The notes below the pieces were generated by a model. That model worked only from the letters and a program-made list of their open reading frames with translations, ran no database searches and was not told the origin of the DNA. Both the position numbers and the translations under genes were made by a program. A DNA stretch of 5,275 nt. It comes from Thermoproteota archaeon (GTDB lineage Archaea; Korarchaeota; Korarchaeia; B14-G2). Positions 1 through 4,178 of the stretch are shown here, in pieces (position 1 is the first letter of the stretch; each line of letters opens with the position of its first letter). The stretch lies in contig QMWA01000128.1 of the NCBI GenBank assembly GCA_003661385.1, forward strand, positions 1-5,275. Direction: 5' to 3'.

Positions 1-215
1 GCCCTCCACACTAGAGACTTGAACCCCTGGCTGGTCAGGATCTTCTGGATCATCCTCCTTAAGACAGCTCTAGCTTCACCTCTCTCTCTGAAGCCAGCTT
101 CAGGCATGTAGGTCTCCATGTCCCACTCCATCAGCGAGAGGGCATGGCCTATAGCCCAAACCTCCCTGTACCTCCTTAAGATCTCCTTAACCTCAGGGCT
201 TTCAGCAAGCTCCAT
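1..215 (-). CDS. M32 (Taq-type) metallocarboxypeptidase, N-terminal part, cut by window edge
   Basis: The reverse strand reads open from an ATG at 215 to the window edge, giving 71 residues and no stop. The N-terminus starts MELAESPEVKEIL and continues through YREVWAIGHALSLMEWD, METYMPEAG and FRERGEARA. This is the pattern at the start of M32 carboxypeptidases (carboxypeptidase Taq), cytoplasmic zinc enzymes of about 500 residues that remove C-terminal amino acids from peptides. The HEXXH zinc motif lies far downstream and is outside the window, so activity cannot be judged. An in-frame GTG at 224, three codons upstream, lies about 25 nt from a TATA-like box and could be the real leaderless start; the ATG is the more usual choice. 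A second, broken copy of the same gene lies at 1737-2130. The family call rests on remembered conservation. Confidence 0.85.
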   Translation of the reverse strand, partial: MELAESPEVKEILRRYREVWAIGHALSLMEWDMETYMPEAGFRERGEARAVLRRMIQKILTSQGFKSLVWR

Positions 216-228
216 ACACGGCACCAGC
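180..228. repeat. 49-bp direct repeat, copy 1 (start region of intact M32 gene)
   Basis: This stretch is identical to 2095-2143 in the same orientation. It covers the first 12 codons of the M32 gene and 13 bases before its ATG. Similarity runs with one mismatch to about 233 and then stops, so the upstream boundary of the duplication is near there. Confidence 0.9.
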
Positions 229-244
229 CCCCAGAGCCTCACGC

Positions 245-252
245 CATATAAG
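245..252 (-). promoter_or_regulatory. TATA-like box of the M32 carboxypeptidase gene
   Basis: The reverse strand reads CTTATATG here. Its centre is about 25 nt from the in-frame GTG at 224 and about 34 nt from the ATG at 215, so the transcript would be leaderless or have a very short leader. The broken M32 copy has a similar box (CTTAATA) at the same distance from its start. Confidence 0.55.
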
Positions 253-265
253 CCTCCAGCTTCCA

Positions 266-281
266 TAGCTGCATGCAGCTA
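266..281. repeat. Perfect 16-nt palindrome over the ATPase stop codon
   Basis: TAGCTGCATGCAGCTA is its own reverse complement. It covers the TAG stop of the ATPase gene (281-279) and lies 14 bp from the TATA-like box of the downstream M32 gene. It has no loop and no T-run, so it is not an obvious terminator; a dimeric regulator site is possible but unproven. Confidence 0.6.
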
Positions 282-1571
282 AGGCAAGGCTTGCTGCCTG
301 GAGCTATGCTCGGTCTTCAGTGAAGCTAGGAAGAGCGGGAGCTTTTCTCTGTCTAGCAGTATGGTTCTCATGTGCTTTGGCCTGCTCCATGGTGCTGCAC
401 CCCACTTGGCCTCGAACCCCAGCTGCCTTCCCTCTATTACCGCCACCACATCGACTTCCGTCTGGTTCCTCCAGTAGTATACTGGAGCAAGCCTTGCTAG
501 ATGTGATGCCAGTATCGACTCTGCTATGCTCTCCTCTAAGACCTCTACTCTCGTGTACCTTGAGAAGACCCTGTAGATCAGCGGGTCTGCTGGATGTATC
601 TTCTTGTTCTTCCTATAGTGTACTCTCCCATCAGGTGTTATGAAGTTCAGGACAAGCACTGCGAACAGAGCCTCTAGGGTCTCGACATAGGACTGTGCTG
701 TGTGGGGTGATGCTATCGAAGTCTCTCTCGCTATGCTCAGCCAGCTCACTGGGGTCAGCCTGCTTCTCAAGATGTATGCTATGACTTCCCTCATGTACCT
801 GCTGCTCTTGCCTGCCTTAGTCCAGTCTGACCTAAGCCAGTCGAGGTAGGTTCTGACTGTTGTCTGCGTGACTCTACCTCTCTCAGCCTTGTCTATGATG
901 GACAGTGGGAAGCCTCCTGTCTCCATGTAGCTGGTGAAGAGCCTGCTTATCCTCCTGAGGAGCAGACTGTTGGCTTTCATGGCCCTCTCAACATCCTCTA
1001 GGCTTGCTATGCCAGCCTTGGCTGTCCTCACTCCATGCACTCTCTCCATGTACTCCGAGAAGCTCAGCGGATGCATTACGATATCTCTGCCATGGCCTCT
1101 CCTGCCTGGGAAGAGCTCCTTTTGGCTGAAGAGCTCGATGCTAGCTGACCCAGATACCACGATGACATCTCTACGCAGCAGCCTCCTGTCTATCCTCGAC
1201 TTGACTGCCCTCCACCAGTCCTCAACGAAAGTTACCTCATCGAGAACTATCAGAGAGCTCCTTACCCCATGCTCCTCTCTAGCTGAGAGATAGCTGTCAA
1301 GGACCTCTCCTAGCTCCCTGTAGTCGCTGAGCTCGTCACACGAGTAGTAGAACATGCTCCATGGGCTCCACCCTCTTCTCATGGCCTCATGTATGAGTAT
1401 CTTGAGAGCTGTAGTCTTGCCGACCTGCCTTGGACCTACTAGGAAGTGCAGGGCAAAGGGCTTAAGCTCAAGCTCATCTAGCACAGGCGGAACCCACTTC
1501 ACTACAGAGCTCCTCCACTCCTCATAGTCCTCATCAGTCTCATTAAACCACCATGGGTTATACCATTCCAT
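279..1571 (-). CDS. AAA-type ATPase with C-terminal DUF4143 / nuclease-like domain
   Basis: This encodes a predicted cytoplasmic ATP-binding protein of 430 residues, of the archaeal/bacterial COG1373-like group whose role is not established. Seen in the sequence: Walker A GPRQVGKTT at residues 46-54, Walker B LIVLDE at 107-112, a sensor-like VVSGSAS at 138-144, and a helical middle region with ETGGFP. The C-terminal part carries EVD at 372-374 followed by FEAK at 386-389, the spacing of a PD-(D/E)XK nuclease-like core as seen in the DUF4143 part of this family. The frame is open up to an ATG at 1649, but I place the start at the ATG at 1571 (protein begins MEWYNPWW). A canonical TTTATATA box centred about 24 nt upstream fits a leaderless transcript, and the upstream 26 residues read through that promoter. 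The gene lies between a broken and an intact copy of the M32 carboxypeptidase gene. ATPases of this kind are often multicopy and variable between strains, so insertion here is plausible. The biological role is unknown. Confidence 0.9.
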   Translation of the reverse strand: MEWYNPWWFNETDEDYEEWRSSVVKWVPPVLDELELKPFALHFLVGPRQVGKTTALKILIHEAMRRGWSPWSMFYYSCDELSDYRELGEVLDSYLSAREEHGVRSSLIVLDEVTFVEDWWRAVKSRIDRRLLRRDVIVVSGSASIELFSQKELFPGRRGHGRDIVMHPLSFSEYMERVHGVRTAKAGIASLEDVERAMKANSLLLRRISRLFTSYMETGGFPLSIIDKAERGRVTQTTVRTYLDWLRSDWTKAGKSSRYMREVIAYILRSRLTPVSWLSIARETSIASPHTAQSYVETLEALFAVLVLNFITPDGRVHYRKNKKIHPADPLIYRVFSRYTRVEVLEESIAESILASHLARLAPVYYWRNQTEVDVVAVIEGRQLGFEAKWGAAPWSRPKHMRTILLDREKLPLFLASLKTEHSSRQQALP

Positions 1572-1591
1572 GCAGTCATATTGCAAAGGTG

Positions 1592-1599
1592 TATATAAA
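1592..1599 (-). promoter_or_regulatory. Canonical archaeal TATA box of the ATPase gene
   Basis: The reverse strand reads TTTATATA, a near-ideal archaeal TATA box in an otherwise GC-richer stretch. Its centre is 24-25 nt upstream of the ATG at 1571, the distance expected between the box and the transcription start. This supports a leaderless mRNA and decides the start codon. It is the only box in the window that does not begin CTTA. Confidence 0.8.
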
Positions 1600-1635
1600 T
1601 GCATTTGCATCAATAATGCCAATACATCCATCGAT

Positions 1636-1660
1636 GCAGATGAGAACACTCCTCATCAGC
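1636..1660. repeat. Imperfect inverted repeat upstream of the ATPase promoter
   Basis: Nine-base arms (1636-1644 and 1652-1660) pair except for one A-A mismatch, around a 7-base loop; the core is GATGAG / CTCATC. It lies about 40-65 bp upstream of the ATPase TATA box. It could be an operator or a remnant terminator of the broken gene upstream. Short inverted repeats also arise by chance. Confidence 0.35.
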
Positions 1661-1736
1661 CAGTCTCTGCATGGGTAGCTAGCCTCATGAAGCCACCCTT
1701 CTGCAGCCAGGAGAGGCTCCAGCCAGCATGCCCTCC

Positions 1737-2130
1737 CTACTCTCCTAGCCTCCTCGTCCTCCACTTCCCCAAGAGCTCCTCTGCCGCCACGCGCGAGTAG
1801 GCCTCGGTAGTAGCCTTAGCTTCCTCCTCGATGAACTCAGGTGGAAGCTTCATGTACCTGTCGATCTCCCTCTCAAGAACCCTGAGCACCCCCTCTCGAA
1901 GTCGTTCCTCGCCTCAGCTCTCCTGACGAGAGGGACGAAGTCAGAGCTGGTCAGTGCTCTCTGAATCACCTTCCTGAGGGCAGCTCTAGCCTCACCTCTC
2001 TCCCTGAAGCTCCCTCAGGTATGTAGGTCCACATGTCCCAGACCATCAGCGACAGAGCATGCTTAAGAGCCCAAATCTCCCTATACTTCTCCAGGATCTC
2101 CTTAACCTCAGGGCTTTCAGCAAGCTCCAT
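1737..2130 (-). pseudogene. Broken 5' fragment of an M32 carboxypeptidase gene
   Basis: From the ATG at 2130 the frame reads MELAESPEVKEIL and then YREIWALKHALSLM, closely matching the intact copy at the left edge. At about 2010 one base is missing relative to that copy, and the original frame hits TGA at 1968-1966. In the shifted frame the homology continues (FRERGEARAALRKVIQ, then LTSSDFVPLVRRAEARNDFE). A second shift in a G-run at 1889-1893 moves it to the third frame, which reads VLRVLEREIDRYMKLPPEF and EEEAKATTEAYS, again like M32 proteins. The first shifted frame stops at 1850 and the last at 1737. After about 1797 the resemblance fades; a TGG at 1789 in yet another frame may mark a third shift. 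The rest of the roughly 500-codon gene, including the zinc motif, is missing. It can make no normal enzyme. It could be a remnant of a tandem duplication or the end of a copy displaced by the ATPase gene. Confidence 0.85.
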
Positions 2131-2143
2131 ACACGGCACCAGC
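2095..2143. repeat. 49-bp direct repeat, copy 2 (start region of broken M32 gene)
   Basis: This is identical to 180-228. Immediately inside the genes the two copies diverge clearly, including at silent sites, so the perfect match is confined to the start region. The two copies are about 1.9 kb apart and enclose the ATPase gene. Confidence 0.9.
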
Positions 2144-2160
2144 TCCCATAGGATCCACAG

Positions 2161-2167
2161 TATTAAG
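2161..2167 (-). promoter_or_regulatory. TATA-like box of the broken M32 copy
   Basis: The reverse strand reads CTTAATA about 25 nt from an in-frame GTG at 2139 and 34 nt from the ATG at 2130. This is the same geometry as the box before the intact copy, although the sequence between box and repeat is not conserved. The promoter may still be active even though the gene is broken. Confidence 0.45.
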
Positions 2168-3092: not shown

Positions 3093-4178
3093 ATGAGGGT
3101 TCTAGTATACGAGTGGGCTTGTGCAGGAGGCTACAAGGCTGCCCCAGAGATACTTGGTGAAGGCTACGCCATGATGTCAGCTGTAGCAGAGGACTTCACC
3201 AGAGTAGCTGAGGTAGCTGTGTCCCTGGATCCAGCTCTAGCTTGTGTGAGCCCTCTCAGCACGTCTGTGGCGGCAGCTAGCCTGGGAGAGGCTATCAGGT
3301 CTTTCAGCCCAGACTACGCTTTAGTTATAGCTCCTGAGTCAGCTGGAGCTCTCAAGGCTCTCGTAGAAGAGGTCCTCGACTCTGGTGTAGCTTCACTGAA
3401 CTGCAGCCCAGAGGCCATAGAGCTCTGTGGAGACAAGCAGAGGACCATCGAGGAAGCTAGGAGAGCAGGCTTAGCCACCCCCTTCTCTACCGCTGTAAGC
3501 ACGCTTGAAGCTCCACAGCGTCCTCTCTGGCTTCCAGCTGTAGCCAAGCCGATAGATGGCGTAGGCTGTGAGGGCCTATACCTTGTGAGAGACAGGCTAG
3601 AGCTGCTTAAAGCCCTCAAGCTCATAAGGCAAGCAGGATGGCAGGAAGCCGTAGTCCAAGAGTACATCAAGGGCGCCAACATGAGCGTCAGCCTCATAGC
3701 ACAGCGGGGAGAAGCCAAAGCCTACACGGTAAACTCCCAGTTCATATCCCTAGCTCCACCCCCAAGGGCTTCAAGCTACAAGGGTGGCTACACCCCTGTG
3801 AAGCTCCCCAAAGCCAGGGAGGCAGCTAAGGCAGCTGAGCACCTGTGCAAGAGCATAAGAGGGCTGAAAGGCTACATCGGGGTAGACATAGTCCTAGCTG
3901 AGGAACCCTACATAATAGAAGTCAACCCAAGGCTCACAACAAGCTACATAGGGATGAGGCTGGTCCTAGAGCAGAATCCAGCTAAAGCAATGCTAGCTGA
4001 AAGAACACCCACACCAAAGCTAAGGGGGCACTCGGCATTCAGGAAGCTACAGCTGAGAAGGAAGCCGAAGCTCAGAGCACACATAGCAGCCCCACCAGGA
4101 TCCAAGCAAGCAATAGTAGCAGTATGGGCTCCAACGCTACCGGAGGCGCTAGCTGAGCTCAAGAGAATCAGCACATAG
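3093..4178 (+). CDS. ATP-grasp ligase, COG1821 / MfnD-like
   Basis: This is a 361-residue cytoplasmic ATP-dependent carboxylate-amine ligase. The N-terminus MRVLVYEWACAGG resembles the VFEY-x-GGG start of archaeal ATP-grasp proteins such as tyramine-glutamate ligase MfnD. Seen in order: an N-terminal domain to about residue 110, CGDKQRT at 112-118, the ATP-binding loop AVAKPIDGVGCEG at 149-161 (K152), VVQEYIKG at 187-194 with NMSVSLIA after it, GYIGVDIVL at 260-268, and the metal-binding YIIEVNPRLTTS at 273-284 (E276, N278). The core motifs are all present, so the enzyme is probably active. MfnD adds glutamate to tyramine in methanofuran biosynthesis. No other gene of that pathway is in the window, so the substrate here is unknown. 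The basic tail after about residue 305 looks like an extension. The start ATG fits the TATA-like box 26 nt upstream. The TAG stop is followed, in the same frame, by an open stretch leading into the next gene. Confidence 0.88.
   Translation: MRVLVYEWACAGGYKAAPEILGEGYAMMSAVAEDFTRVAEVAVSLDPALACVSPLSTSVAAASLGEAIRSFSPDYALVIAPESAGALKALVEEVLDSGVASLNCSPEAIELCGDKQRTIEEARRAGLATPFSTAVSTLEAPQRPLWLPAVAKPIDGVGCEGLYLVRDRLELLKALKLIRQAGWQEAVVQEYIKGANMSVSLIAQRGEAKAYTVNSQFISLAPPPRASSYKGGYTPVKLPKAREAAKAAEHLCKSIRGLKGYIGVDIVLAEEPYIIEVNPRLTTSYIGMRLVLEQNPAKAMLAERTPTPKLRGHSAFRKLQLRRKPKLRAHIAAPPGSKQAIVAVWAPTLPEALAELKRIST

Follow-up and report, generated by a model that had tools for sequence, protein, structure and literature searches.

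How did a short archaeal contig come to carry the 5' end of an M32 carboxypeptidase gene twice, on the same strand, with an ATPase gene between the two? The window, i.e., the whole stretch of DNA analysed, is the entire contig C128 of the host assembly (G000), 5,275 bp with no flank beyond it; the assembly is a fragmented Korarchaeia MAG of 1.74 Mb in 206 contigs, estimated as 91% complete. The nearest genomes in our comparison belong to other families of the same class; one class relative is available as a single contig (G002), which we take to be Candidatus Korarchaeum cryptofilum. A synteny search across 100 relatives and GTDB r220 returned no close relative of the methyltransferase gene that adjoins one of the M32 copies, and none of the genomes compared offers a syntenic relative in which the M32 locus could be seen in its unduplicated state. 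Further along in the window, an ATP-grasp protein (3093–4178) resembles the tyramine-glutamate ligase MfnD, at 111.6 bits far below the 400-bit equivalog cut-off.

The better-preserved M32 copy lies at the left edge (3–215, minus strand) and comprises codons 1–71 in an open reading frame. Its N-terminal match to the M32/carboxypeptidase Taq profile (PF02074) scores 30.1 bits, above the curated cut-off of 25.1, and it retains the motif WDMETYMP; an ATG at 266 would allow the ORF to begin farther upstream. A TATA-like box, CTTATATG, can be read from the sequence at 245–252 (minus strand), 30 nt upstream of the ATG. A candidate frameshift near the contig end (GTGTGGAGGGC) was rejected because, read in frame, the sequence is colinear with the second copy. 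The first-pass annotation had described a decayed and an intact M32 copy flanking the ATPase gene: the two same-strand copies, the frameshifts of the right one and the open ATPase gene between them all stand, but the left copy could not be confirmed as intact, since the window is the whole contig, beyond whose edge the gene continues after codon 71.

A genome-wide search did not find the middle of the M32 gene in the assembly, and the sole M32 3' end in the genome (profile positions 338–489; E ~4e-54) runs precisely up to the edge of a different contig, C103. Because the only 3' end abuts this edge, the left copy and the C103 piece are probably one gene split by the assembly, a link we draw because the pieces amount to no more than a single M32 gene and the contig edges correspond; about 830 bp, i.e., about 280 codons, would then be missing between them. 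The retained gene is probably functional, with its central part, where the HEXXH zinc site would lie, falling inside the assembly gap.

The right copy, henceforth the stub (1784–2130, with the M32 part at ~1790–2130, minus strand), had been said to contain at least two frameshifts and to lack a 3' part, and we agree on both counts: there are two -1 shifts, at ~2011 and ~1890, similarity to the M32 proteins of class relatives ceases at codon 113, and codons 114 to the end are deleted. M32 homology, disabling frameshifts and a missing catalytic part together mark it as a pseudogene. In addition, it reads WDMWTYIP in place of WDxETYMP, thereby losing the family-invariant Glu, and is without residues invariant in 16 class relatives, whereas the left copy keeps the motif. 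Both copies carry unusual residues at three positions conserved among relatives (16, 17 and 20 of the list of compared residues), which counts against the history favoured below. Random sequencing error is an unlikely cause of the frameshifts, because several indels within about 420 bp sit in the stub alone while the neighbouring genes stay open; on ORF inspection this holds for the methyltransferase, ATP-grasp, YdjM and ATPase genes of the window. The stub is most likely without function at present. Its own TATA-like box, CTTAATAC (2160–2167, minus strand; read from the sequence), stands at the same distance from the ATG as that of the left copy, and because the boxes are equidistant from both start codons, the core promoter was probably duplicated along with the M32 unit. 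No further M32 remnants were found elsewhere in the genome; in a different genome, G013, a second M32 5' fragment occurs at a contig end.

The remnant had originally been delimited as 1737–2130. This is correct for M32 down to codon 113, but 1737–1783 belongs to a fragment of another, small gene. Alignments and DNA matches within the genome (E 1.5e-7 and 1.8e-6) delineate it as part of a decayed paREP6-like, antitoxin-like gene that has suffered several indels (1713–1783, minus strand), with fainter similarity perhaps continuing to ~1640; the 70 bp from 1783 to 1713 align to this family with scores of 63–66, as against shuffled maxima of 26–30. On C103, an intact relative of the small gene follows on the same strand, starting 11 bp beyond the stop codon of M32. 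The stub and C103, itself inferred to hold the 3' end of the left copy, thus share a gene order that extends beyond one gene: M32, then the small gene. Because codon 113 joins a fragment of the very family found downstream of M32 on C103, the stub can be understood as a shrunken copy of the whole unit of M32 and small gene. The member from which the fragment came is uncertain, since two copies on contig C192 match it as well as the C103 copy (scores of 66 and 66 versus 63); hence, its source could be another family member.

The gene between the copies (279–1571, minus strand) codes for an intact ATPase of 430 aa, in which both the AAA_14 (PF13173, E 3.9e-23) and the DUF4143 (PF13635, E 4.3e-10) domains are over the Pfam cut-offs, at 82.3 and 40 bits. 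As in other archaeal and bacterial ATPases of this architecture, from which it departs in no unusual way, there is a P-loop (GPRQVGKTT) and a C-terminal EVD..GFEAKW. The strong promoter attributed to this gene is indeed present as a good archaeal TATA box read from the sequence, TTTATATA (1592–1599, minus strand), and because transcription would, at this spacing, begin near the ATG at 1571, it suggests a leaderless transcript. The protein also matches the PADLOC candidate defence singleton PDC-S01 (E 1.3e-27), where the defence role is a database label only. The closest named relatives are 50–57% identical and come from MAGs of Aenigmatarchaeota, Njordarchaeota, Altiarchaeales, Bathyarchaeota, Asgard and others; relatives inside its own class are many, several with internal stops, and reach about 41% identity or less. 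As the closest relatives are scattered over other archaeal phyla and none was found with M32, the ATPase gene was probably acquired horizontally and separately from M32. Neither an M32 gene nor a small gene stands beside the ATPase gene in any of the 19 named relatives, and an adjoining M32 gene is also absent among the best class hits and domain hits; the earlier proposal that the ATPase arrived together with part of an M32 gene therefore finds no support, no relative showing such a linkage.

The 5' ends of the two M32 copies are 79% identical over 238 aligned columns, and the flank alignment of the window scores 133.5 against a shuffled maximum of 21. Around the start codon they share a perfectly identical stretch of 49 bp (180–228 in the left copy and 2095–2143 in the stub, both minus strand), a run length reached in 10 of 100,000 column shuffles. 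Codons 1–12 thus show zero differences, as against 45 at the nucleotide and 18 at the amino-acid level over the 56 codons that follow, and the NG86 estimates beyond codon 12 are dS 0.76 and dN 0.25. As this perfect run stands amid sequence of about 75% identity, the simplest explanation is a recent short gene conversion between the copies, which we consider likely; the identity pattern suggests sequence exchange between the copies as opposed to excision of the segment. The alternative that these are attachment-site repeats of an integrated element was rejected because the paralogy runs past the 49 bp and an integrase is absent from the window.

Taken together, these observations lead us to favour, as probable though by no means assured, a history in which a unit comprising core promoter, M32 gene and small gene was duplicated in tandem and one copy then decayed, with a separately gained ATPase gene between the two. 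In outline, duplication followed by decay and ATPase insertion was one of the options in the first-pass annotation, and it gains from the stub having M32 and a small-gene piece in the native order of C103. Briefly, we envisage that the core promoter, the M32 carboxypeptidase gene and the paREP6-like gene would have been duplicated in tandem, rendering the copy adjoining the methyltransferase gene redundant. One or more internal deletions, amounting to ~1.2 kb, would have removed M32 codons 114 to ~500 and the start of the small gene from the stub, which would also have gathered its frameshifts; the deletion and the frameshifts are seen in the stub, and their order is our reconstruction. The AAA_14/DUF4143 ATPase gene, probably gained horizontally with its own promoter, would have come to lie between the stub and the retained copy, with the latter, probably still functional, now divided between contigs C128 and C103. 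Short-range gene conversion around the start codon would have re-homogenised the 49 bp of both copies, as their identity pattern implies.

The duplication in native order would also result from a Campbell-type single crossover, whereby incoming DNA with the ATPase gene and the M32–small gene piece of a related species recombined with the resident M32 gene. Such an event would explain in one step why there are two copies, why they diverge (the above dS and dN values) and why the ATPase is foreign, and would agree with the patchy distribution of the ATPase across phyla. We nevertheless regard it as unlikely: beyond the lack of M32 or small genes near the ATPase in all 19 named relatives, none of the 15 relatives with enough flank has clear flanking direct repeats (one of these scores 20.0 versus 17.5 shuffled and another 15.0 versus 14.5 shuffled, compared with the 133.5 of the window), and the window has no plasmid, integration or recombinase gene. 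We give somewhat less credence still to a recombination scar, in which an illegitimate or repeat-mediated event fused an M32 piece to one of the dispersed paREP6-like repeats, with no tandem duplication of the unit. Here, the junction does coincide with the boundary of the small gene's conserved 5' half, the family, with 13 matches genome-wide, seems to undergo local recombination, and the equally good fit to the C192 copies is accommodated; however, the intact same-strand order of M32 and small gene on C103 would then arise by chance only, whereas duplication of the unit predicts it.

The region had also been put forward as a potentially excisable segment. With perfect 49-bp direct repeats 1.9 kb apart, this is mechanistically possible, and a crossover inside them would presumably restore one continuous M32 gene; yet it is unproven, and the assembly holds the undeleted arrangement only. 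The stronger version, in which part of the population actively loses the ATPase gene and the stub through such crossovers, strikes us as very improbable in view of the limited identity outside the 49 bp and the lack of a recombinase. Tandem duplication with decay remains our preferred account of the window.

The small-gene piece in the stub drew our attention to the wider family, which is matched by no Pfam or NCBIfam model. In Makarova et al. (2009; PMC2701414), paREP6 is a predicted antitoxin subfamily near COG2886/UPF0175 with four named K. cryptofilum members, and its genes are "often associated" with PIN toxin genes; one paREP6-associated difference between Pyrobaculum species is also on record (PMC3558965). 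There are four members of our small-gene family in G002, whose number, order and positions fit the four Kcr locus tags given in PMC2701414, and from the number and order of these members we infer that the family is probably paREP6. Like the paREP6 described there, the members are small HTH-like proteins encoded next to PIN-like genes in archaea; in contrast, the paired arrangement with identical 5' halves described below goes unmentioned in the paREP6 section of that paper, and the window has a decayed piece only. No PIN-like gene is found beside the C103 small gene or in the window, which lowers the case for paREP6 membership but does not exclude it because the association is stated there to hold only "often". 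One small-gene relative has a weak UPF0175 match (E 0.055), and the PIN-like neighbours in relatives are identified by motifs only, with PIN_6 as the best Pfam match (E 0.096). No convincing match emerged when PDB profiles were searched with the PIN-like, small and ATPase proteins, and in the literature on DUF4143 and on antitoxin gene conversion we found nothing on point.

At twelve loci, from Korarchaeia and neighbouring classes, two members of the small-gene family flank a PIN-like gene, and in about nine of the twelve, spanning several genera, their 5' halves are near-identical. At the paired loci of C105, C192, K. cryptofilum and G004, identity is 119–120 of 120 nt in the 5' halves as against 37–53 of 81 in the 3' halves; a similar pattern is seen in G001 C4 (115/120), G026 (59/60), G027 (21/21) and G028 (60/63), and a less marked one in G001 C8 (103/120). 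It is absent in C154, and the two G151 pairs are diverged or poorly aligned. Such pairs include L010 (265–501 and 1034–1285), L114 (904–1128 and 139–366), L120, L121 and L173–L176, where the 5' identity extends to silent sites. For the C-terminal halves, similarity is higher among copy-1 genes of different loci (0.64) than between the two copies of one locus (0.41), with copy 2 showing no such excess between loci (0.38); the N-terminal halves display the opposite trend, at 0.80 within a locus and 0.45–0.56 between loci. To judge from these alignments, the pattern bears the signature of gene conversion confined to the 5' half.

When typed by eye, most single small genes have a C-terminus of the copy-2 type and no PIN-like neighbour, which would fit, without proving, excision of a toxin cassette between the repeats. 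Three single genes of the copy-1 type by the same typing (L164, L184 and L165, from G002 417k, G002 844k and G151 C5) are followed by truncated PIN-like fragments. Contigs also break within matching small-gene 5' halves, at the right ends of C29 (L119) and C39 (L115) in the host assembly and at the end of C103 (L161) and the start of C82 (L149) in G024; because the breaks fall inside these matching halves, they suggest that small-gene repeats interrupt assembly and hide further pairs.

We tentatively offer a general picture, more as a possibility than as an expectation, in which local conversion or recombination keeps identical the 5' halves of paired antitoxin-like genes around a PIN-like gene, while the same repeats serve as handles for toxin excision that leaves a single antitoxin, the M32 stub being one scar of such events. 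The locus itself is ordinary, combining duplication, pseudogene formation and a probable horizontal gain in an uncultured archaeon, and its value lies in the side result on the paired antitoxin-like genes. With these pairs, gene conversion and the loss of toxin cassettes could become directly testable in Korarchaeota, for which G002, as a single-contig genome, offers the starting point.
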